Source of the DNA: Acidimicrobiia bacterium
Lineage (GTDB): Bacteria > Actinomycetota > Acidimicrobiia > Spongiisociales > Spongiisociaceae
Length of the DNA: 64,000 nucleotides
Direction: 5' to 3'
Assembly (NCBI GenBank): GCA_009841105.1
Contig: VXMM01000048.1
Coordinates: forward strand, 1 to 64,000
In this document: piece after piece, positions 8,983 through 55,614 of the stretch
Position numbering within the stretch: the first letter of the stretch is position 1
How the letters are laid out: the number at the start of each line of letters is the position of its first letter
Translations under genes and position numbers: made by a program
Notes under the pieces: generated by a model
Database searches by the model: none
Seen by the model: only the letters and a program-made list of their open reading frames with translations
What the model was told of the DNA's origin: nothing

Positions 8983-10131
8983 TCAGGCGCCGCGGAGGTA
9001 GCTCTGCATGCGGCGGCCGCCTGGCTGGCTGCGCATCTTGCGCAGGGCTCGGACCTCCAACTGGCGGATCCGCTCCTTGGTCACGCCCATCCGGTCGCTG
9101 ACCTCCTGGAGGGTCCTGATCCGGCCGTCGGCCAGGCCGAATCTCATCGTGATGACCTTCCGTTCCCGTTCGTCCAGGCCTTCCAGCGCCAGGGCCACGC
9201 TCTCCTGCAGGAGCGTGAGGACCGCACCATCTGCCGGAGCCCCCGCCGCATCCTCATCCTGGACGAAGTGCCCGAGGGTCAGATCGTCGGAGTCGGTCAC
9301 CTTGGCGTCCAGGGACAGCATCCCGCTGGAGAGCTCGGCCAGCTTCAGGACCCGATCATCGGGTAGGTCCATCTCGGCGGCCAACTCCTCGGTGGTGGGC
9401 TCGCGACCGGACTCCTGGTAGAGCCTCCGCCGGACGACGTCCAGTCTCCTAACCTGCTGCGCCAGGTTCTCCGGGACCCGGATGATCCTCTTGTGCTCGT
9501 TCAGGGCCCGGCCGACCGTCTGGCGGATCCACCAGACCGCGTAGGTCGAGAACTTGTAGCCCCTGCGGTAGTCGAACTTGGCGGCGGCCTTCATCAGGCC
9601 CACGTTGCCTTCCTGGACGAGGTCCAGCATCGGAACCCCCGGTATGACATATCGCTTCGCCACCGAGACGACCAGGCGGAGATTGGCCTTCACCAGCCGC
9701 TCCTCGGCCTGCTCGCCGCGGCGCGCTATGGCGGCCAGCCGGCAGTACTCGGTATCCGAGCGGGACCTTCCGGCTGCGTCCAACTCGGCCAGCTTGGCTC
9801 TGGCCTCGACTCCGGCATCCTTCGCCATGCCCAGGTCGACCTCCTGGCGAGGGGTGAGGAGCGGGACCCGGCCGATCTGGCGGAGGTACTGGTCGATCGG
9901 GTCGGACAGCAACTCGGCATCTCCGGGCTCCGGATCGTCCCGGAGGCGGTCCGGATCATCGTCCACCACCTCGATTCCGGACCCGCGCACGGCCGCAAGC
10001 GCCCGGTCGAGTGCAGCGGCGGAAGCCTCTGCCACCTCGAGTTCCCGCTTGATCTCGGCGGAGGTGAGGAACCCCCGGCGCCTCCCCCGCTTCAGCAGCT
10101 CCTTGATCGCCTCCTGCGCGTCCGAGCCCAA
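8983..10131 (-). CDS. rpoD: Primary RNA polymerase sigma-70 factor
   Basis: A 382-residue sigma-70 factor that directs RNA polymerase to promoters. Region 1.2 (DPIDQYLRQIGRVPLLTPRQ) starts near residue 78. Region 2, including the -10 recognition helix and the YKFSTYAVWWIRQ melting segment, lies at about 148-210. Region 3 follows, and region 4 ends with the -35 helix-turn-helix (TLQEVSDRMGVTKERIRQLE). The N-terminal region 1.1-like segment (KELLKRGRRRGFLTSAEI) and the location directly behind dnaG mark it as the housekeeping factor. Start is TTG 10131, five bases after AAGGAG. The gap to dnaG is 19 bp, so the two are co-transcribed. At 382 residues it is short for a primary sigma factor, mainly through a short spacer before region 1.2. 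Confidence 0.92.
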   Translation of the reverse strand: MGSDAQEAIKELLKRGRRRGFLTSAEIKRELEVAEASAAALDRALAAVRGSGIEVVDDDPDRLRDDPEPGDAELLSDPIDQYLRQIGRVPLLTPRQEVDLGMAKDAGVEARAKLAELDAAGRSRSDTEYCRLAAIARRGEQAEERLVKANLRLVVSVAKRYVIPGVPMLDLVQEGNVGLMKAAAKFDYRRGYKFSTYAVWWIRQTVGRALNEHKRIIRVPENLAQQVRRLDVVRRRLYQESGREPTTEELAAEMDLPDDRVLKLAELSSGMLSLDAKVTDSDDLTLGHFVQDEDAAGAPADGAVLTLLQESVALALEGLDERERKVITMRFGLADGRIRTLQEVSDRMGVTKERIRQLEVRALRKMRSQPGGRRMQSYLRGA

Positions 10132-10150
10132 ACCTACTCCTTAAACCGCC

Positions 10151-11911
10151 TCAGAATCCTTCTTTCTGTAACGCTAACAGTTCGTCACGTGCTTGGGAAT
10201 AGGCTTCCTGATCTTGTATTGGATCCATCTCTCCTAGCATCACCAGAAGTTCGTTCTTGCGGCGATGAACCTTCCGTCTTTCGAGATGGGTCATCACATC
10301 ATCGAACGGCTCCAGCGGCGCATCAGTTAAGGCCAGCCGATGAGCCAGAGCCGACATGGCCTGATCCTTGAGACGGTCCAGCGGGATCGGAGTGCCCTCT
10401 TCCAGGTGCTTTCCCTCCTCGAGCAACCACTCGACCAGTTCGGCGGCCTGATCATCGTCGAACAGCTCCGGCTTCACCCGTTCGCGCTCCGCGGTCCCCG
10501 CCATGAGGTGGCGGAGCACGTCCCGTTCCGACCGATCCATCGGGCCGGAGGCGACGGGCCCGGTCACGGCGGGCCGTCCATGAGCGCGAGGGTGACCCTG
10601 AGACCGGCCTCCCCTGCCGGTGGTGGCGTTCCTTTCGATCTCCGCAAGGACAAGATCGACTTCCATGTGGGTACGCGCTGCGACATAGACAGCGTGCTGG
10701 TGACGAGCCACCGTGTCAGGATGGCGGGCGATCAACTCCACCGCCGCCTTCAACGCCTGGTTGCGCGCGTTCCGCTCCCCCAGGTTGTACTGACCGAGCA
10801 GCCGGTTGAGCCGGAACTCGGTGATCGGCGCCGATCCGTCGACCGCATCCCGGAGCAGGTCCCCCTTGTCCTCGAACACCAGGTCGGCCGGGTCACGGCC
10901 CTCGGGCATCATCGCCACCCGCAGATCGAGACCCAGCTCGGACGTGATGCGCAGATCGTCCCCGCGCACGGCGGCGCCGGCGCCCGCCGCGTCGGCGTCG
11001 AACGCCAGCACGATGCGGCTGGAGAAGCGGCGAAGCAGGTCGAAATGGGCCTCACCGAGCGCCGTCCCGCAGGTGGCCACCGCCAGGGGCAGATCAGCCA
11101 GATGGAAGGCGATCACGTCCGTATACCCTTCGACCACCACCCCCAGCTCCTCCCGGCTGATGGCGGACCGAGCCTTGTCCAGGCCGTACAGGAGCTCGCT
11201 CTTCTTGTAGAGCGGGGTCTCGGGGGTGTTCAGGTACTTGGGCCCCTCGCCACGCAGGAGGCGGGCTCCGAACCCGACCATCTCCCCGCGCACGTTGTGG
11301 ATGGGGAACATCAACCGGCCCCTCATCTGGTCGATGAGGCGCCCGCGGCCCACCCTTCTCGCCAGGCCGGCCGCGAGGATGTCGGAATCCTTGTGCCCCT
11401 TGCCGCGCAGGTGGGAGACGAGGGCTTCGGACTGGTCGGGCGCGTAGCCGAGCTCGAACTGGTCCACTACCTCAACGCCGTAGTTGCGTCCCCGCACGTA
11501 GGACCGGGCATGGCCGGCATCGGATGCGGACTTGAGGCGGTCCTGGTAGTAGCGACCCGCCTCGGCCACCGCTTCGACCAGCCGGGAGCGCCGTTCCCGC
11601 TGCTGCGCCGCCCGGGGGTCGCGCCGGATGACGATGCCGGCCCGGTCCGCCAGCACCTCCATCGCCTCGACGAACGACAGCCCCTGGGTCTCCTGAACGA
11701 ACGTGAAGACATCCCCGCCCACGCCACAGCCGAAGCAGTGGTAGAGCCCGCGGACCGGGTCGATCGACATCGAGGGGGTCTTCTCCGTATGGAAGGGGCA
11801 TAGGGCCTTGAAGCTGCCCCGAACCTTCCTGACGGTGGTCACTCCCTCGAACAACTCGACCAGGTTGACCGCTTGGCGAATACGCTCCAGGTCGTCGCGA
11901 TCGGCTGCCAT
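10151..11911 (-). CDS. dnaG: DNA primase
   Basis: A 586-residue primase that makes RNA primers at the replication fork. The N-terminal CHC2 zinc finger is complete (CPFHTEKTPSMSI, then YHCFGCGVGG, residues about 38-65). The catalytic core follows (RGRLMFPIHNVRGEMVGFGA) with a TOPRIM domain containing EGYTDVIAFH and the acidic pair in LAFDADAAGAGA. The C-terminal helicase-binding region is short and weakly conserved, as usual. It heads a dnaG-rpoD operon of the classic macromolecular synthesis type, without rpsU. All key residues that I can check are present. Confidence 0.95.
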   Translation of the reverse strand: MAADRDDLERIRQAVNLVELFEGVTTVRKVRGSFKALCPFHTEKTPSMSIDPVRGLYHCFGCGVGGDVFTFVQETQGLSFVEAMEVLADRAGIVIRRDPRAAQQRERRSRLVEAVAEAGRYYQDRLKSASDAGHARSYVRGRNYGVEVVDQFELGYAPDQSEALVSHLRGKGHKDSDILAAGLARRVGRGRLIDQMRGRLMFPIHNVRGEMVGFGARLLRGEGPKYLNTPETPLYKKSELLYGLDKARSAISREELGVVVEGYTDVIAFHLADLPLAVATCGTALGEAHFDLLRRFSSRIVLAFDADAAGAGAAVRGDDLRITSELGLDLRVAMMPEGRDPADLVFEDKGDLLRDAVDGSAPITEFRLNRLLGQYNLGERNARNQALKAAVELIARHPDTVARHQHAVYVAARTHMEVDLVLAEIERNATTGRGGRSQGHPRAHGRPAVTGPVASGPMDRSERDVLRHLMAGTAERERVKPELFDDDQAAELVEWLLEEGKHLEEGTPIPLDRLKDQAMSALAHRLALTDAPLEPFDDVMTHLERRKVHRRKNELLVMLGEMDPIQDQEAYSQARDELLALQKEGF

Positions 11912-47630: not shown

Positions 47631-49247
47631 TCAGGCGAGCAGGTACTCCCGGGCCACGACACGGGCCTCGTCCCGAGTCTCCACAATCCGATCGGCGGGT
47701 ACTCCCCGCAGGACGTCCAGCGCCTCCAATGTCCTGGCCACCGGGTCCGGCAGCGCCATCATCACGCATGCGGTGTCGGATCTGGAAGCAACCTCGATAA
47801 GCTGCTCGATCATCATTGCGGCACTGTCGTCGATGTAGGTCGTATCCGAGAAGTCGAAGATGACGACCTCATGGTCTCCGATCTCGGCTCCGATGACGCT
47901 AACCAGCTTGTTGGCCGACGATACGGTGAAGCTACCCCTTAGAGCCACCATGCCGACCCGGGCAGAGAACCTATCAGTGGTTCCCAACTCGCTGTCCTCG
48001 CCGAAGAAGGTCCGGTCGAGCAGCGGCACCGAGATGACGCTGTCCAACTCCAGGCGTTCCAGCTGGCGGGCATGCGCCAGACCGCCGGCGATCAAGCCGA
48101 TCGCCACCGCGGTGATCAGGTCCACCGAGACGGTCAGGACCAGCGTCACCAACATGACAACCAGGTGCTGGGAACGCAAGCGGTGGATCCGGACCAGCAG
48201 GCGCCGGTCCATGATGTCCCAGCCGACCTTCATCAGCACCCCCGCCAGCGCAGCCAACGGGATGGGCTCTGCAAACCTCCCCAGTCCGAGAACCACGGCC
48301 AGCACGAGCAGGGCTCTCAGCGCGCCGGACGCCCGGGTCGTCCCGCCGGAGCGGATGTTGATGACCGTCCCCATGGTTGCCCCGGCGCCCGGCAGCGCCC
48401 CGAACAGCCCGGCAACCATGTTGCCGATTCCCTGACCGATCAGTTCCCGGTCGGGGTTGTGCCTCTGGCCCGTGAGTGAATCAGCCACCAGCGATGTCAG
48501 CAAGCTGTCAACCGAGCCCAGGAGGGCCAGGATCAGCGCCGGCTGGAGAGCGGTCACCAGGAATCCGGCGGCCGGCATCTCCCACACCAGGCCCGGCAGC
48601 CCGGTCGGGATCTCACCGATCACCGGCGCGTCCGAGAGCCACAGGACACCCAGCAGGGTCCCGGTGATCAGCGCCACGAGAGGTCCGGGCGCGTAGCGAG
48701 ACAGCCGCCGCGGCCAGAGGAATCCGACCACCAGCGTTACGACTGCGATGGCCAACGCGCTCGTGTTGGCGTTGCTTAGCGCGTCGGGCAGGGCCCGGAG
48801 CGCTCCGATGACTCCTCCGGAGGCGGAGTCCGCTCCGAGAAACGGCATTATCTGGAGGACGATGACGATGACACCGATGCCCGACATGAAGCCGGACACC
48901 ACCACATGGGGCGTATAGGCGACGAACCGACCGATCCTCGACAGGCCCAGCAGGACCTGGAGCAGCCCGGCTAGCAGGACGACTGTCAGCGCTTCGGGGA
49001 GCGTGTCGGCATGGGTGGTGAGAACCACGGCCATCGCCACCGCCATCGGCGCGGTCGGGCCGGAGATCTGGGAGCGCGTCCCGCCGAAGACCGCGGCGAA
49101 GAACCCCACCGCGATCGCGCCGTAGAGCCCGGCGGCCGCCCCCATGCCCGAGGCGATGCCGAATCCCAGTGACACCGGCAACGCCACCACCATGGAGGTG
49201 AGCCCGCCGAAGAAGTCGCCCCGAAGGGTATCGAGATCGTACTTCAC
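47631..49247 (-). CDS. SulP-family anion transporter
   Basis: A 538-residue SulP transporter. The membrane part (residues about 10-400) shows SMVVALPVSLGFGIASGMG and GTRSQISGPTAPMAVAMAVV, a family signature. The C-terminal STAS domain reads MVALRGSFTVSSANKLVSVI and VVIFDFSDTTYIDDSAAMMI. It overlaps the upstream carbonic anhydrase gene by four bases if GTG 49247 is used (GTGA); GTG 49253 is possible. Pairing SulP with carbonic anhydrase is a known arrangement that points to bicarbonate rather than sulphate, as in cyanobacterial BicA. That is inference from context. Confidence 0.88.
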   Translation of the reverse strand: MKYDLDTLRGDFFGGLTSMVVALPVSLGFGIASGMGAAAGLYGAIAVGFFAAVFGGTRSQISGPTAPMAVAMAVVLTTHADTLPEALTVVLLAGLLQVLLGLSRIGRFVAYTPHVVVSGFMSGIGVIVIVLQIMPFLGADSASGGVIGALRALPDALSNANTSALAIAVVTLVVGFLWPRRLSRYAPGPLVALITGTLLGVLWLSDAPVIGEIPTGLPGLVWEMPAAGFLVTALQPALILALLGSVDSLLTSLVADSLTGQRHNPDRELIGQGIGNMVAGLFGALPGAGATMGTVINIRSGGTTRASGALRALLVLAVVLGLGRFAEPIPLAALAGVLMKVGWDIMDRRLLVRIHRLRSQHLVVMLVTLVLTVSVDLITAVAIGLIAGGLAHARQLERLELDSVISVPLLDRTFFGEDSELGTTDRFSARVGMVALRGSFTVSSANKLVSVIGAEIGDHEVVIFDFSDTTYIDDSAAMMIEQLIEVASRSDTACVMMALPDPVARTLEALDVLRGVPADRIVETRDEARVVAREYLLA

Positions 49248-49867
49248 TGCCACCGCCCACTGTCCAGCACCAGACCGCCGAGGCCGGTTTGCCGGCATAG
49301 CCGCTCCAGACGGCCATCGTCGATGCGGTAGATCAGGCCATGAACCTCAAGGTCCGCGCCGGCACGCCAGGCGTCGCACACGATGTCGGTGGCCGCGACC
49401 TTGCGCACCTGTTCGATCACGCTCAACTCGCACAACCTCTGCCACAGAGCATCGCCCTGTAGCTTCGCCAGGTCTGATCGGTGGGTGCGCACCACCGGGA
49501 GGAGATTATCGAGCCACTCCCCTAGTGGGCCGGTGGCATGCTCGTCCAGGAATGCGTCCACGCCACCGCAACCGTAGTGTCCGCAGACCACCACGCGGCG
49601 CACCCTGAGCGTCTCCACCGCGAATTGCAGCACCGCGAGAAGGCTGGGGTCCGACGGGACGACCAGGTTGGCAACATTGCGGTGAACGAACACTTCCCCC
49701 AGTGACAGGTCCATGATCAGGTTGGGTGACACCCGGCTGTCGGAACACCCGATCCAGAGCATCTCCGGTTGCTGCCCCCGAGCAAGGAGGCGGAACACAT
49801 CCGGGTCAGCCCGAGTCTGCCGTTCCGCCCAGGCGCGGTTCCGTTCGAGTATGTAATCGATGTCGAT
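49244..49867 (-). CDS. Beta-carbonic anhydrase, ATC start
   Basis: A zinc enzyme interconverting carbon dioxide and bicarbonate. Zinc ligands are Cys in LWIGCSDSRVSPN and His/Cys in VVVCGHYGCGGVDAFL; the Asp-Arg dyad is also there. The first canonical start, GTG 49798, would remove a conserved N-terminal helix. Reading further upstream in frame gives IDIDYILERNRAWAERQTRA, the normal start of this family, and the first codon ATC (49867-49865) sits eight bases after GGGGAGG. There is no ATG, GTG or TTG between the in-frame TGA at 49960-49958 and GTG 49798. I therefore infer an ATC start and 207 residues. It is translationally coupled to the SulP gene. Confidence 0.82.
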   Translation of the reverse strand: MDIDYILERNRAWAERQTRADPDVFRLLARGQQPEMLWIGCSDSRVSPNLIMDLSLGEVFVHRNVANLVVPSDPSLLAVLQFAVETLRVRRVVVCGHYGCGGVDAFLDEHATGPLGEWLDNLLPVVRTHRSDLAKLQGDALWQRLCELSVIEQVRKVAATDIVCDAWRAGADLEVHGLIYRIDDGRLERLCRQTGLGGLVLDSGRWQ

Positions 49868-50097
49868 GAGGACGACCTCCCCAGCCGACCCGGAATCGTA
49901 ACCAACCCGGCCACGCCCTCCGACCAGAACCCGGCCGTCGAACCTGACCAGGCTGGTTCACCGCCTGTCGCTTCGTCACCCAACGTTCCCAGTACCCGTC
50001 CTCAAGCGGGACAGTCGCAGCATGCATAGGGTTGGTAGAGAATCGCTAACCCGCGGGTCGGCGGCGTCCCGCGAGGTCGGGTAGTCCATCATGTACC

Positions 50098-51684
50098 ATG
50101 AGCCTGGTGGAGGCCACCGACACGGATGCCTGCGACATCATCGACCAGATCGAGCGCATGGCGCTAGGCATGGTCGGTCCTGCCTTCAGGGGCCAAGCCG
50201 ATGCTAGCTGGCCTCTGCGTTCGGGAGCGGTCCACCGTCTCGTCGAGACACACGGTGAGTCTGTCTTGAGCGATGAGGGCTATCTCAAGCAGTTGCTGTC
50301 TGGCTATCACCGCGACATCAGCAGAAGAGCTGAGATTATTGAGGGAGCGCAAATGACGCCCCTGCAGAGGCTGTCCGTTCTCCAGCATTTCGGCGCAGGG
50401 ACCGGACTCTTGGATTTCACCCGCAGCGCTTTGGTTGCGCTCTGGTTTGCTTGTGACGGTGAACCCCATAGCGACGGCAGGGTGTTCGCCTTGGACATCG
50501 CAAATCCCCTGGTTGCCGTCGATGGTCGAGGACTCGATTCTGAAGGACTATTCGACACAGGCCAGGCAGTGTATTACGAGCCCGACCGATCGCTGGGGGC
50601 GCGGATCGTCGCGCAGCAAAGCGTTTTCGTGATCTGCAACCCACCACCGATCCTCGATCAGCATGTGCCGTATGTCGACGTGCCAGCGCAATCCAAGATG
50701 CCGATCCAGGAGCGACTGGAACGCCTCGGGCTGTCTCGCGAATCACTGTTCTGTGATCTGCCGGGGTTGGCGCGTGCAAACAGCAGAACCCGTCCGCTCC
50801 TGATGGACTGGCTGACGCCTGAAGAGCACCTACGGCTGGGAACCCATGCCTACCGGATGCAAAGGTACGCGGATGCCCTCGCGAGCTACGAGTCCTATGC
50901 TTCTGCGTATCCCGATGTGGCCCAGTCACACTGTTTGATCGGCGACGCGTATTCCGCGATGGGGCGGTTTGACGAGGCGTCGACCGCCTACACGCGCGCC
51001 ATCGAGAACATTGATCGGCCGATGCCCCAGCTAGAAGGGTCCACGCCCACGCAAGAGTTCAAGGATTGGATGCTGCGACCGATCTACTACAACCGCGGCA
51101 ACGCGCATGCCGCGGTCGGGAGACACTCAGAGGCGATTGCAGACTTTGACCGATCCCTAGCTCTTGAGAAGTCCTCGGCTCTTGACTCCGGGGACGGGCG
51201 AAATGTGCTGTTCAACCGCGGAAACTCGAAGTACGCGCGGGGACGCTTCCAAGAAGCCTCACGGGACTTCGAGGAAGCATGGTCGCTACGCGAAACAAGC
51301 GACGCCGCGCTTGCCCTCGGAAACACCAAGATGCATCTCGGAGAGTTCGCCGAAGCCTTGATTCGGTACCACGACGGCGCGAACCTTGAGAAGCCCGAGA
51401 GTGCGGACGCGCCGTGTCGTACGAATGCCAAGCAATGCAGCGACCTTCTTGAAGCCTTGGCTGGGCATGATTTTGCAGTGCGGCCCAGCGAACGAAGCGA
51501 CGTAATTGTGACCGTGGAAGCACCGTTATCTGGACCAGGGGGCTTTGTGTTCGTCGGCAATCGGGGCAATGTCGGCAACACCCCTTCGGGCATGGTGGGT
51601 GCGCCGGGCGGGGAAGGTTATGGCGGGATGGCTGGCTTCGCGGTACTGCTGCGACCGGCACAGGGGCAAGCGGCAGGCCGGTAG
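50098..51684 (+). CDS. FRG-domain/TPR/Gly-rich protein
   Basis: A 528-residue three-part protein. Residues about 10-215 are an FRG domain: PAFRGQADASWPLRSGAV carries the naming Phe-Arg-Gly, and LSVLQHFGAGTGLLDFTRSA with ALWFACDGEP is the second conserved block. Residues about 240-430 are TPR repeats (RLGTHAYRMQRYADALASYE, IYYNRGNAHAAVGRHSEAIA, LFNRGNSKYARGRFQEASRD). The last 50 residues are a Gly-rich tail (GNRGNVGNTPSGMVGAPGGE). FRG domains have no established activity and occur often near defence genes. Codon use and GC are lower than in core genes. It is monocistronic, at the left border of an accessory island. A role in defence is inference. Confidence 0.8.
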   Translation: MSLVEATDTDACDIIDQIERMALGMVGPAFRGQADASWPLRSGAVHRLVETHGESVLSDEGYLKQLLSGYHRDISRRAEIIEGAQMTPLQRLSVLQHFGAGTGLLDFTRSALVALWFACDGEPHSDGRVFALDIANPLVAVDGRGLDSEGLFDTGQAVYYEPDRSLGARIVAQQSVFVICNPPPILDQHVPYVDVPAQSKMPIQERLERLGLSRESLFCDLPGLARANSRTRPLLMDWLTPEEHLRLGTHAYRMQRYADALASYESYASAYPDVAQSHCLIGDAYSAMGRFDEASTAYTRAIENIDRPMPQLEGSTPTQEFKDWMLRPIYYNRGNAHAAVGRHSEAIADFDRSLALEKSSALDSGDGRNVLFNRGNSKYARGRFQEASRDFEEAWSLRETSDAALALGNTKMHLGEFAEALIRYHDGANLEKPESADAPCRTNAKQCSDLLEALAGHDFAVRPSERSDVIVTVEAPLSGPGGFVFVGNRGNVGNTPSGMVGAPGGEGYGGMAGFAVLLRPAQGQAAGR

Positions 51685-51857
51685 CGGGGCCAGCTGGCAG
51701 AGGTATGGTCGAGGGACGCTCGGGGACAACCATCAGGAGACCCGCTGCGCGGGACAACCGACCTCACAGGACATACGGCCGCAGCCGCTTCGGTCCGGCC
51801 GGCCGTGGTCGTACAGTATGTAGGAACGTTTCCACCCGAATCGGGAGGTAGGTCGAA

Positions 51858-52121
51858 GTGTTGGGACATGTGCACAGCATGAGCAGCCGGGAGTTCAACG
51901 AGGCGACTGGTGAGGCGAAGCGGGCCGTACAAGCTGGCACCGTCCATATCGCCGATCGCGGGTGCCCGTCCCACGTGCTGATGAGTTACGAGCACTACCG
52001 GGAACTTACCAGCGACAGGCTGCACTTCGCCGACATACTGTGCAGAACGTCGGGCATCGGCAAGCTCGACGTGGAGTTCCCGAGACCTGGCGATCCGGCG
52101 AGACCTGCCGCCTTTGAGTGA
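51858..52121 (+). CDS. Phd/YefM-type antitoxin
   Basis: An 87-residue type II antitoxin. The N-terminal DNA-binding fold reads SSREFNEATGEAKRAVQAGT, then VHIADRGCPSHVLMSYEHYR, the Phd/YefM pattern. The C-terminal toxin-binding tail is LDVEFPRPGDPARPA. GTG 51858 follows GGGAGG at nine bases; ATG 51879 is an internal alternative. Its stop overlaps the ATG of the VapC-like pseudogene (TGATG), so the two were a coupled pair. The frame is intact although the toxin is not. It could still repress its own promoter. Confidence 0.82.
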   Translation: MLGHVHSMSSREFNEATGEAKRAVQAGTVHIADRGCPSHVLMSYEHYRELTSDRLHFADILCRTSGIGKLDVEFPRPGDPARPAAFE

Positions 52122-52563
52122 TGTAGCTCGCCTACAACCGTTGTCGTCTCGGAGAGCCGCGAGATCCACTCCTGCCGAGCCGATCCTGGTGTGCGTCCTG
52201 CGTGGCCCGAGTCGACCACGGCTTGGGCTACATGTCGACCATCACCATTCATGAGCTCGAACTCGGTGTGTTGCTGGCCCAAGGTCGCGACCCGGCGTCT
52301 GGCGCCGTACTGCGACGGTGGCTCGATAACGATGTGTACGAGGCCTTCGATGGACACATTCCGCCAGTGAGCACCACGATGGCGCGATTGGCCGCCTGCC
52401 TCCATGTAACAGGATCCGGCGCCTGTGAGTGCGCTCTCATCGGCGGCACCGCCATGGCGAGACAACACGGTCCTGGCGACCCGTAACACCAGAGACTTCG
52501 GAGAGTTTCCGGGGCTCACGGTCCTGAACCCGTGTGAGTTCACCGCGACGACGAAGCCTTGAG
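52121..52563 (+). pseudogene. VapC-like PIN toxin, inactivated
   Basis: Three frames in turn carry a PIN-domain ribonuclease. The ATG at 52121 is followed at once by TAG. Next, TTVVVSESREIHSCRADPGV appears in one frame, then VARVDHGLGYMSTITIHELE with LGVLLAQGRDPASGAVLRRW and RLAACLHV in a second. A third frame holds VLATRNTRDFGEFPGLTVLN and ends at TGA 52561-52563. At least three frameshifts and one nonsense codon are needed. The first catalytic Asp, normally in Leu-Leu-Asp-Thr, is lost. The recognisable C-terminal Thr-Arg-Asn-x-x-Asp-Phe shows the family. Toxin function is certainly gone. Confidence 0.8.
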
Positions 52564-52611
52564 TCGGTTTCAACTTCGGAAATGACCAGGTTCAGCGTTC
52601 CGAAGTGTGTT

Positions 52612-54210
52612 TTATGTTGGTGGCACTAAGCAGGACGCGAAACGGCGATAGGGAATCGATGGTATGACCTCCCTCAGCGGGAACCATCGAGACCGACGAT
52701 CAGCTGGAACTGGTTCAACGTGCATTATTGCGATTGATCGCTCTACAGCCGTATCCTCTACATCAAAAGGCTCTATTGCACGCAATGTGACATCGTCAGG
52801 TGGTCTTGCTAGACAGGCAAGTCCAGTTTCTTCGTCTGCCAACCAGTAGCGTGTCTCGCCATTGATGTAATCAACGCGTACAAGTTTGCCTCGTGTCGTG
52901 TCTCCGACGGTAGGCATGTCAGGTGCCAAGAACCGCTCGACTTCGTACCTCCACACTTTAAAGGCTTCTACCGGGTCTGATCCGAAAAAGCTCTGAGTCC
53001 CTCGTTCCCATGCTAAGTGACGGGTCTTGCTTAGGTTTCGAATCCGGTCGTGACCACGCAGAAACACCGTAGCGAACGGGTATTTGTCAACTACGCCGGT
53101 AAGACGGTCGCTTACGTAACGCTCGAGATGGTAAGTTGCATCCAGTGAACGGCGTACCTCGGCCGCATTCGGCTCATATCCCATATGGACTATCTGATCA
53201 CGGAGGTCAGCTACGTGACGTTTCCATTCAGACACAGGCCCCTTACCGTCGAGTGTCCAATTACCACCCAGACGATTGTGGAACGCTCCTTTTGCTAGTC
53301 TAGTAACGGATCTCATAGCACGCATCTCTCGCACCGCCTCCTTAGGTTCCAAGCCTTCATCCCACATTATGGCTAGGTGAAGCTCGCGCAAGAGCGCTTC
53401 CGCCGCAGCTCCATTGAGCACAGAGGCTGTTAACCGATTCCCATCTCGCTGTGCGATAGATGTTTCCCGGCGAAAGTTAGCATATGTCGCGAATGGCCCA
53501 GGCCACAACCGTACATCGAGGGTCATCTGTTGTAGCTTTTCTTCCGGTAGTTCATCTGATGGAGCAATACACGTTAGGGAGGATGAGACGTCATTGATTA
53601 GAAAAGTGAAATGACTTGGCTGACTAGACGGACGCAGTTCACATGATTCACCAAGGGTCATGGCTGTAATAGCGACCGGAATTGCCATCGGGAGAGTCTC
53701 TCTCGTAACTAGCGTGACAGGTGTTTGAGAGACAAGATAATACATCTGCTGAATTCCTCGAATCTGTTCGAGACCGTAGTTGAATGCCTCCTCTAGCTCG
53801 GTGATATCGACATCCGTTTCACATAGGACCGCGACTTCCACAACCGTGGAGGCCGTAGCCTGTGGAACTATTTTCTCGTGTGCCTCACTAGGAATCTGAG
53901 CATCCTCTGGATTGATGTCCGCATCTGAGCCAGCGAAAGCCTTCGCCGCTGCTATAAAGGCTGGTCTGGCAAAGATCACGGGATTGCCTCTTGCCTCATC
54001 ATCTATCTGGCGGAATAACAGACTCCCTACTATCTTGCGGTCAAGTCCATCTTCAGTCTGAAATGGCGCTCCGACGCGACTGCCATCAGCCATTTCTACT
54101 AGGCGGATGATCCAACCATCTGGGACAGCAAGCCGCTCTGGTAAAGAGACAAAAAAATAGGCGACATTAGGCAATGGGCTCATGTTGTCATCCATCAGTG
54201 GTGCTATCAC
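52612..54210 (-). CDS. HEPN-motif protein, AT-rich foreign gene
   Basis: A 532-residue protein that I cannot assign to a named family. A helical central part (about 265-375) contains LRDQIVHMGYEPN, an Arg-x4-His motif (R337, H342) with Asp after the Arg, as in HEPN ribonuclease domains. Nearby sequence (EALLRELHLAIMWDEGLEPK; HVADL; LDATYHLERYV) suits the paired helices of that fold. The N-terminal 250 residues are mixed alpha/beta without known motifs; the last 90 include a beta-rich stretch (GKLVRVDYINGETRYWLADE). There is no signal peptide. The gene is visibly more AT-rich than its neighbours and uses codons such as AGA and ATA freely, which marks recent transfer. Similarity to Abi/ApeA-like defence HEPN proteins is inference. 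Confidence 0.7.
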   Translation of the reverse strand: MIAPLMDDNMSPLPNVAYFFVSLPERLAVPDGWIIRLVEMADGSRVGAPFQTEDGLDRKIVGSLLFRQIDDEARGNPVIFARPAFIAAAKAFAGSDADINPEDAQIPSEAHEKIVPQATASTVVEVAVLCETDVDITELEEAFNYGLEQIRGIQQMYYLVSQTPVTLVTRETLPMAIPVAITAMTLGESCELRPSSQPSHFTFLINDVSSSLTCIAPSDELPEEKLQQMTLDVRLWPGPFATYANFRRETSIAQRDGNRLTASVLNGAAAEALLRELHLAIMWDEGLEPKEAVREMRAMRSVTRLAKGAFHNRLGGNWTLDGKGPVSEWKRHVADLRDQIVHMGYEPNAAEVRRSLDATYHLERYVSDRLTGVVDKYPFATVFLRGHDRIRNLSKTRHLAWERGTQSFFGSDPVEAFKVWRYEVERFLAPDMPTVGDTTRGKLVRVDYINGETRYWLADEETGLACLARPPDDVTLRAIEPFDVEDTAVERSIAIMHVEPVPADRRSRWFPLREVIPSIPYRRFASCLVPPT

Positions 54211-54244
54211 CTCACTTCGATTGCGGATATTAGTATTCTCTAGG

Positions 54245-54521
54245 TCCTAAGGTTACGGCCACGGCCCGGTCCCGTATCGCCTGTCTTGGTCGGAGAGACG
54301 TGGTCCTGTCGACCATCAGGCTGCACGTTCGTGCAGACCGTTCTTCTCATCGGGAGTAACCGATAGGCAGATCAGGGCGCCTCGGTCGATGAGTCGTGAA
54401 AGCACACACCGTCACCAAGTTGGCGGCATCGAAAGTGATCGTCCTAGGACGATCACGACGGGCCGGGGTTGCCCGCGTAGCGAATACCGCCCGTCGCCGT
54501 CGGTATCTCGCCCTGCCTCAT
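54245..54521 (-). pseudogene. MazF-like toxin, inactivated
   Basis: The ATG overlaps the stop of the MazE-like gene (ATGA). Reading on the minus strand, MRQGEIPTATGGIRYAGN is followed in a second frame by QPRPVVIV, and in others by FDAANLVTVCAFTTH, VTPDEKNGLHERA and SLMVDRTTSLR. These are consecutive blocks of a MazF/PemK endoribonuclease, split by at least four frameshifts over about 270 bases. The Lys-Pro-Arg-Pro and Asn-Gly-Leu-His-Glu blocks are family hallmarks. No working toxin can be made. Confidence 0.75.
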
Positions 54522-54709
54522 TGGAGGTCAAGGCCGAGAGCGTCGATGAACGCCTGGTCGTCATCAGCACGGTCGCTTCCGGCAACGGCCGCCGACTGCC
54601 GGTGTGCTTCTGCCACGAATGACGGGGCACGTACGTCGACTACCCACATCTGGATCGGGCGCATGCCCTGTTCACGCATCCGCTTGCGGTAGTCACGAAC
54701 CTGCCGCAT
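54518..54709 (-). CDS. MazE-like antitoxin (DUF3018)
   Basis: A 63-residue protein: RDYRKRMREQGMRPIQMWVV, then DVRAPSFVAEAHRQSAAVAG, then DDQAFIDALGL. This is the DUF3018 family annotated as antitoxin MazE-like, normally encoded directly before a mazF gene with a four-base overlap, as here. ATG 54709 is preceded by an in-frame stop, which fixes the start. The frame is whole while its partner is destroyed. Confidence 0.8.
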   Translation of the reverse strand: MRQVRDYRKRMREQGMRPIQMWVVDVRAPSFVAEAHRQSAAVAGSDRADDDQAFIDALGLDLQ

Positions 54710-54783
54710 GCTCGTCTCGTCTCATGCGCTGTCATCGGATCCAAGTTACATGAAACAGCGCCGTTAGCGGCCTACGTCCACCG

Positions 54784-55614
54784 CTACGAGAAGGTCTTGA
54801 GCGCGTCTGCTATCTCGGAGGCGACCAGGTCGGGGCGTTCCACCGGGACCAGGTGACTCTGGCCCGCCATGTAGGTGGTGGTGACGTTGGGAAGCGCCTC
54901 CGGCAGCAGCGCCAGGGAGGGTCCCAGCTCGCCGGCCCGGTCGGTGACGACGAGCCGTACCGGAGTGGCCAGCTCGTCGAGGCGGGCGAAGGCGCCGCAT
55001 TCGGCGCCGGTGGCGAACAGCTCCGCCTCGACCTCTCGTCGGCAGCGCAGCGCCAGCCCTTCCGCTACCTCCTCGAAGCCGTGTTCCACGTAGGCCCGGA
55101 AGGCCTCCGGGTGCCAGCGCTGGAACAACGGCTTGGCCAGGTAGCTCTCGATCAACTCGTCCCGGGAGCCGAAGACCGGGCGCCTCCGGGCTGCTCCCTG
55201 TGCCAGCGAGAACTCGGGGTTGCGCACGAAGGGCGGCGGGATGAGGACCGGTTCGACCAGCACCAGCCCGGTGAAGGTACCGGGACGCAGAAGCTCGGCC
55301 AGGACCAGCACGGTGCCGCCCATCGAATGGCCTACGCCCACCAACGATTCCGGTAGCCTTCCGGCGCCGGCCAGGCTATCGATCAGGCCGACGAGATCCC
55401 TCCCGAATGTCCACCACGACGCCGGAAGCTCCAGTGCCGGCGCCCGTCCGTGGCCGCGGACATCCCAAGCCAGCGCGGCAGCCGTAGCGCCCTGATCCCG
55501 GAGGCTCGACACCACCGGACGCCAGAGCTCTTTGCAGAATCCGGTGGCATGGGCCAGTAGGAGCAGTTCATCGCCCGCGCCGTCATGCCACTCCAGGGCC
55601 TCCTGATTCACCAA
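54784..55614 (-). CDS. Alpha/beta hydrolase
   Basis: A 276-residue alpha/beta hydrolase. The nucleophile elbow is VGVGHSMGGTVLVLAEL, the oxyanion region LLLLAHATGFCKELWRPVV and the acid and His positions are RLVVTDRAGELGP and AGQSHLVPVERPD. Early in the chain WDVRGHGRAPALELP matches the family's Asp-x-Arg-Gly-x-Gly turn. The substrate is unknown. TTG 55614 or GTG 55611 lies 12-15 bases after the aceE stop, so it is probably the second gene of an aceE transcript. Confidence 0.85.
   Translation of the reverse strand: MVNQEALEWHDGAGDELLLLAHATGFCKELWRPVVSSLRDQGATAAALAWDVRGHGRAPALELPASWWTFGRDLVGLIDSLAGAGRLPESLVGVGHSMGGTVLVLAELLRPGTFTGLVLVEPVLIPPPFVRNPEFSLAQGAARRRPVFGSRDELIESYLAKPLFQRWHPEAFRAYVEHGFEEVAEGLALRCRREVEAELFATGAECGAFARLDELATPVRLVVTDRAGELGPSLALLPEALPNVTTTYMAGQSHLVPVERPDLVASEIADALKTFS

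Follow-up and report, generated by a model that had tools for sequence, protein, structure and literature searches.

The window, by which we mean the whole stretch of 64,000 nucleotides that we analyzed, carries on its minus strand an intact open reading frame of 532 codons at positions 52612-54210, which is the gene under study. The GTG listed as its start (54210) sits within a GAGGTG stretch that resembles a Shine-Dalgarno sequence, and the ATG at codon 6 (54195), which would give a protein of 527 amino acids, is the more plausible start; residues are nevertheless counted here from the GTG at 54210. The features of this gene, and the segment in which it lies, are as follows:

52612-54210, minus strand: HEPN-family gene, 532 codons from the GTG at 54210; homologues are full-length or near full-length
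53506-54174, minus strand: N-terminal alpha/beta domain (residues 13-235), a candidate sensor, from an AlphaFold domain model
53095-53490, minus strand: HEPN helical domain (residues 241-372), pLDDT about 90 or above, PDB matches 2q00, 2hsb and 1wol
53398-53400, minus strand: E271, the acidic residue upstream of the motif, invariant in 18 of 18 aligned members
53200-53202, minus strand: R337 of the R-x4-H motif, invariant in 18 of 18
53185-53187, minus strand: H342 of the R-x4-H motif, invariant in 18 of 18
52666-52893, minus strand: partly beta C-terminal tail (residues 440-515), found only in a subset of members
52541-54533, no strand: segment of about 2.0 kb, essentially the HEPN gene only, missing from the sister genome G008 by empty-site comparison

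Using the 38 other open reading frames called in the window as the baseline for composition and codon use, we observe that the HEPN gene has a GC content of 51.6% and a GC3 of 0.469, against a GC3 of 0.819 ± 0.057 for the other genes (z = -6.2), and that its codon-adaptation-like index lies 5.7 SD under theirs. The gene is therefore foreign in composition and was recently acquired horizontally, and "AT-rich", as the original prediction described it, is a relative term at 51.6% GC. The site of acquisition is flanked by a SulP-type transporter (47631-49298) and an alpha/beta hydrolase (54784-55614), names that we assigned by reading the sequences; these flanking genes are 65 to 1647 bp apart in seven genomes of the same genus and about 5489 bp apart here. 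The sister genomes G003, G007 and G008 show a carbonic anhydrase gene, then a region alignable to window positions 51815-52563, and then the hydrolase, and compared with them the window contains two separate insertions, one with an FRG-TPR gene (about 49927-51814) and the other with the HEPN gene. Relative to G007 the HEPN insertion spans about 52535-54778, and it amounts to about 2.2 kb against G007 and G003. Since the HEPN gene occupies its own separate insertion relative to the sister genomes, it came essentially alone, and it was found in none of the 58 close relatives searched (0/58, the window's own genome aside).

These findings agree with the original prediction on each point that concerns the locus: a frame of 532 residues (for which no strand had been named), codon use unlike that of the surroundings, as the GC and codon-adaptation calculation proposed at the time now demonstrates, the lack of a partner on the same strand, since the inserted segment contains no co-directional partner gene, and a stand-alone layout, the inserted segment being essentially the HEPN gene alone.

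The same site holds a Phd antitoxin with an intact PIN toxin in G007 and a different pair, VapB-like with PIN, in G006, and on this basis we class it as a toxin-antitoxin hot spot. The window itself contains a Phd-like antitoxin gene (51858-52121, plus strand) and a frameshifted remnant of a PIN toxin gene (about 52130-52560, plus strand); the intact Phd/PIN pair of G007 is located at 869-1132 and 1129-1572 of locus L089, and the VapB-like/PIN pair of G006 in locus L091. The FRG-TPR gene (50098-51684, plus strand) encodes an FRG-domain and TPR protein that matches PADLOC PDC-S15 (8.7e-30) and Pfam FRG (6e-14), and this gene, missing from the sister genomes, is a candidate for a second defence gene at the same site.

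The HEPN motif, predicted structure and known families

The protein contains LRDQIVHMGYEPN, which holds R337 and H342. HEPN RNases are characterized by an Rx4-6H motif with a polar residue after the Arg and by an upstream acidic residue or Ex3[KR] (PMC3710099). We aligned 18 members of the family, which were found by sequence similarity or profile without use of the motif and are mostly about 20-30% identical to the window protein. This alignment demonstrated that no columns other than R337, H342 and E271 are identical throughout, and that the residue after the motif Arg is N, D or H in all 18 members (RDQIVH in the window protein), in agreement with the rule given in PMC3710099. A second set of 19 loci, from GTDB contigs, was collected with a motif-containing pattern and is excluded as evidence of motif conservation. 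By our own arithmetic, one chance R-[NDH]-x3-H is expected in about 7% of proteins of such length, and we consider the match to be more than chance because it is invariant in 18 divergent members collected without the motif. The Ex3[KR] companion is kept only in part across the family: the window protein has E271 and R275, while the relatives mostly have D in place of R275.

AlphaFold was given the window protein together with 19 relatives. The full-length model has a mean pLDDT of 74.7 and a pTM of 0.68; residues 241-372 are mostly alpha, and R337 and H342 sit at the C-terminal end of a helix (325-343). Among the Foldseek matches listed against the PDB, the best probabilities belong to 2q00 (0.97, TMt 0.67), 2hsb (0.85) and 1wol (0.80), all of them HEPN proteins, with only the probability being high, since their E-values of 0.6-1.1 (0.6 for 2q00) are not significant; no PDB match to the full model was found at E < 0.001. 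Two of these structures, 2q00 and 2hsb, are classed as HEPN in the literature (PMC3710099). The N-terminal domain, when modelled alone, reaches a pLDDT of 80 and a pTM of 0.78, with its elements in the order strand-strand-strand-helix-strand-helix-strand-strand; it has no PDB match by Foldseek (best probability 0.21 in the best 50), and a search against viral structures gave no match.

The original reading of the protein has thus held up in most respects: R337 and H342 as a HEPN ribonuclease pattern with a polar residue after the Arg are borne out in 18 of 18 members, the helical context of the motif is what the model gives, the proposed comparison with HEPN folds returns HEPN proteins as its top Foldseek probabilities, and the N-terminal half is still unrecognised. 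The description of the tail as beta-rich stands in part, in that AlphaFold models beta structure within residues 442-511, but the tail is only partly beta.

The window protein has no significant match in Pfam, NCBIfam, PADLOC or PDB sequences; a TetR match (E 0.04) and ribosomal L25 matches (E 0.16-0.5) were dismissed as noise. A Pfam search with 20 members returned two weak DUF4145 matches (best E 0.02) and one weak HEPN match. HEC-08 and DUF3644 were each matched by two members, one of which (L048) matches at 6e-6 and 3e-4 across the motif region. This likeness of L048 to PADLOC HEC-08 and to the DUF3644/EC042_2821 HEPN proteins is confined to the HEPN part, and neither is matched by the window protein or by almost all other members. 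A further family of about 300 amino acids (loci L010-L014) has a HEPN domain related to that of the window protein by profile comparison (98.4%, E 6e-15) and carries an RNxIVHxG motif, but differs in having a zinc-ribbon-like N-terminus with Cys pairs, which is a different domain, in being shorter, and in its lower-GC hosts. This Zn-ribbon-HEPN family (L010-L014 and L016) recurs in one family of actinobacterial genomes; G105 has it twice, and one of these copies looks truncated.

Among named families, ApeA (HEPN_Apea, PF18739) is similar in its length (about 475-490 amino acids), in combining an N-terminal part with a C-terminal HEPN domain, and in its R-N-x-x-x-H motif, and is found in R-M operons of epsilonproteobacteria (PMC3710099). 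We found no PF18739 match, and hhalign with a thin two-sequence ApeA profile gave 4.8% for the HEPN domain and 0.8% for the full length. The DUF4145 HEPN proteins (PF13643), which are also associated with R-M operons (PMC3710099), share R-x4-H but have other N-terminal parts; the window protein gave no match, and 16% by hhalign with a five-sequence DUF4145 alignment. Both negatives are weak, because these profiles are thin (two and five sequences). The AbiJ proteins likewise fuse a novel alpha+beta N-terminal domain (AbiJ-NTD1-5) to an active HEPN domain, and some are solos within R-M operons (PMC3710099), but the family described here has no Pfam or PADLOC AbiJ match and its N-terminal domain is unrecognised. 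PrrC and RloC, which are HEPN RNases frequent in R-M operons (PMC3710099), carry an ABC ATPase fusion, whereas the window protein has no ATPase domain. As there is no ApeA or DUF4145 profile match, and with those negatives weak, we file the window protein as a predicted HEPN RNase of an unnamed family, with an AbiJ/ApeA-like layout and, by the tests made, a member of neither.

Distribution and genomic context of relatives

A tblastn search of plasmids identified divergent homologues in Corynebacterium maris, Arthrobacter, Gordonia and Rhodococcus fascians, and a further plasmid-borne homologue in Kocuria rosea, and these are annotated as hypothetical proteins in their records. Searching the phylum with a profile, we obtained matches from 10 of 396 genomes, about 2.5% of the actinobacteria sampled; five of the ten (G078, G093, G105, G139 and G257) contain the related Zn-ribbon family and one (G391) is marginal. 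A profile search of one class gave a match in 10 of 395 genomes. The 19 loci from the pattern scan of GTDB contigs extend to three MAG contigs of Spirochaetia and to Cohnella lupini. Members are located on plasmids and integrative elements and, judged from these sequence searches, the family is rare, patchy, cross-phylum and without a name. A scan of genome contigs with the window protein alone found no relative, an alignment scan of viral contigs found none either, phages gave no match, and a five-sequence alignment was too divergent for usable pattern scans. Searching with the N-terminal domain alone returned the same HEPN proteins and one other frame (L103), which was rejected as a relative of this domain, its translation being an unrelated TPR-type open frame.

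Reading of the member loci, in which most neighbour genes were judged by eye from sequence starts and several contigs are short, showed a recurrent proximity to R-M genes of different types. In L056 and L063 the member lies with a type I R-M system containing HsdM, with HsdS confirmed in L056, and with HsdS in L063 and a downstream HsdR in L056 called from sequence starts. The L061 member, likewise at type I genes, is downstream of an HsdR and a weak GIY-YIG match, the L059 member is downstream of a Type ISP enzyme, and the L003 member is downstream of a Mod/ResIII pair that is type III-like; in L056 and L061 the member and the gene upstream of it share 4 bp. A DNA methylase and a DUF4365-TPR gene are near the member in L017, TIR, AAA ATPase and N-6 DNA methylase genes are near the member in L114, and AAA_21 and RloB genes are beside the member in L056. 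Other adjoining genes encode TIR_2 (L042), SIR2_2 (L041), DUF4917 (L049) and KAP NTPase (L038 and L063). R-M, TIR, SIR2, KAP and RloB neighbours thus occur across several unrelated lineages, as raw adjacency, and many members, for example those of L040, L048, L050, L055, L057 and L060, have no recognised defence gene adjoining them (judged mostly from sequence starts).

Some loci have arrangements of their own. Two divergent members are located back to back in genome G547 (L038, 8426-10015 on the minus strand and 10086-11795 on the plus strand), beside the KAP NTPase gene, in a region that looks like an integrative element; a GntR gene lies further along, as does an apparent integrase, both called from sequence starts. 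In two genomes that belong to one genus, the HEPN gene faces a similar-looking gene of 275 residues in convergent orientation (L018, 7590-8417; L039, 8342-9169), which is a possible lineage-specific partner. The member on the C. maris plasmid is immediately preceded on its own strand by a DUF5677 gene (L002, 4940-5992).

Predicted function and alternative explanations

We consider it highly likely that the window protein is a HEPN RNase, and the mobile, defence-associated context of the family fits an RNase effector. An antiviral defence role for the family is probable, on the strength of this genomic context, and context and architecture together incline us, with some reservation, towards the gene being a single-gene, horizontally acquired, abortive-infection-type defence effector with a built-in sensor, a part that the architecture suggests for the N-terminal domain. 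In such an effector the C-terminal HEPN domain would dimerise, with R337, H342 and E271 forming a metal-independent RNase site, and the N-terminal alpha/beta domain would restrain the HEPN domain and free it on a phage- or restriction-related signal. The freed enzyme would then cut cellular RNA (tRNA or mRNA), halting growth or killing the cell before phage progeny form. The anticodon nucleases PrrC and RloC serve as a second line when restriction fails or is blocked, and the R-M-embedded members may likewise be a back-up that fires under those circumstances, whereas the HEPN gene in the window is a solo.

Other explanations account for parts of the same evidence. The gene could encode the toxin in a toxin-antitoxin or addiction module whose antitoxin is unlinked or antisense, and would then maintain mobile DNA rather than provide antiphage defence: HEPN toxins are common in such modules (PMC3710099), several family members are plasmid-borne, and the gene was inserted at a toxin-antitoxin site (Phd-PIN in G007, VapB-PIN-like in G006). 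We nevertheless think this unlikely, given that reading the member loci turned up no small neighbouring gene conserved as a partner, that the protein has its own N-terminal domain of 230 residues, unlike minimal HEPN toxins, and that several members lie embedded within R-M operons. That embedding, seen in several independent members that sit inside R-M operons or immediately after them, and the 4-bp overlaps in L056 and L061 could instead mean that the protein depends on an R-M enzyme for its activity, in which case the lone copy in the window would be inert. The R-M types vary (I, ISP and III-like), however, which argues against any one fixed partner for the family, many members lie away from any R-M gene, and none was noticed near the window gene among the selected open reading frames scanned between 46 and 62 kb, and we give little credence to this dependence.

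Two further explanations would remove the ribonuclease itself. There are HEPN families in which the R or the H has been lost and which work as part of nucleotidyltransferase complexes (PMC3710099, Table 1), and a non-catalytic role here, as a binding or nucleotidyltransferase partner with a regulatory or housekeeping function, is conceivable on that precedent but very improbable, because R, H and E are strictly kept while nearly all else diverges, no nucleotidyltransferase was noticed nearby, and the patchy distribution and foreign origin speak against housekeeping. It is harder still to credit that the motif is a coincidence in a protein that is not HEPN: the window protein may lack a Pfam, NCBIfam, PADLOC or PDB sequence match, but the 18 of 18 invariance in divergent relatives, a helical-bundle model for which HEPN structures are the top PDB matches by probability, and the HEC-08/DUF3644 match in one relative (L048) all point the other way.

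A predicted HEPN RNase with a built-in sensor is thus the reading that we favour. HEPN RNases are a major effector class of bacterial immunity, already known as such, and the triggers of many of their families are still to be found; what is new here is the family and its unrecognised N-terminal domain. The family combines strict predicted catalytic residues, a well-modelled unrecognised N-terminal domain and repeated pairing with differing R-M types, and the window gene, being a solo member, makes the question of the sensor addressable with one gene. It is likely to be missed by defence-annotation tools, because no Pfam, NCBIfam or PADLOC model covers it. More speculatively, these proteins might form a cross-phylum, one-gene HEPN RNase defence family in which a new sensor fold reads a restriction- or infection-linked signal, acting either solo or as a plug-in back-up across R-M types I, ISP and III-like.

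One further protein (L111, contig G115:C70) has an N-terminal region that resembles FRG (FRGQCQ...), followed in the same chain by a HEPN region of the DUF4145 type (RNSVVH). This fusion is of interest since the window has an FRG gene and a HEPN gene close to each other as separate genes.
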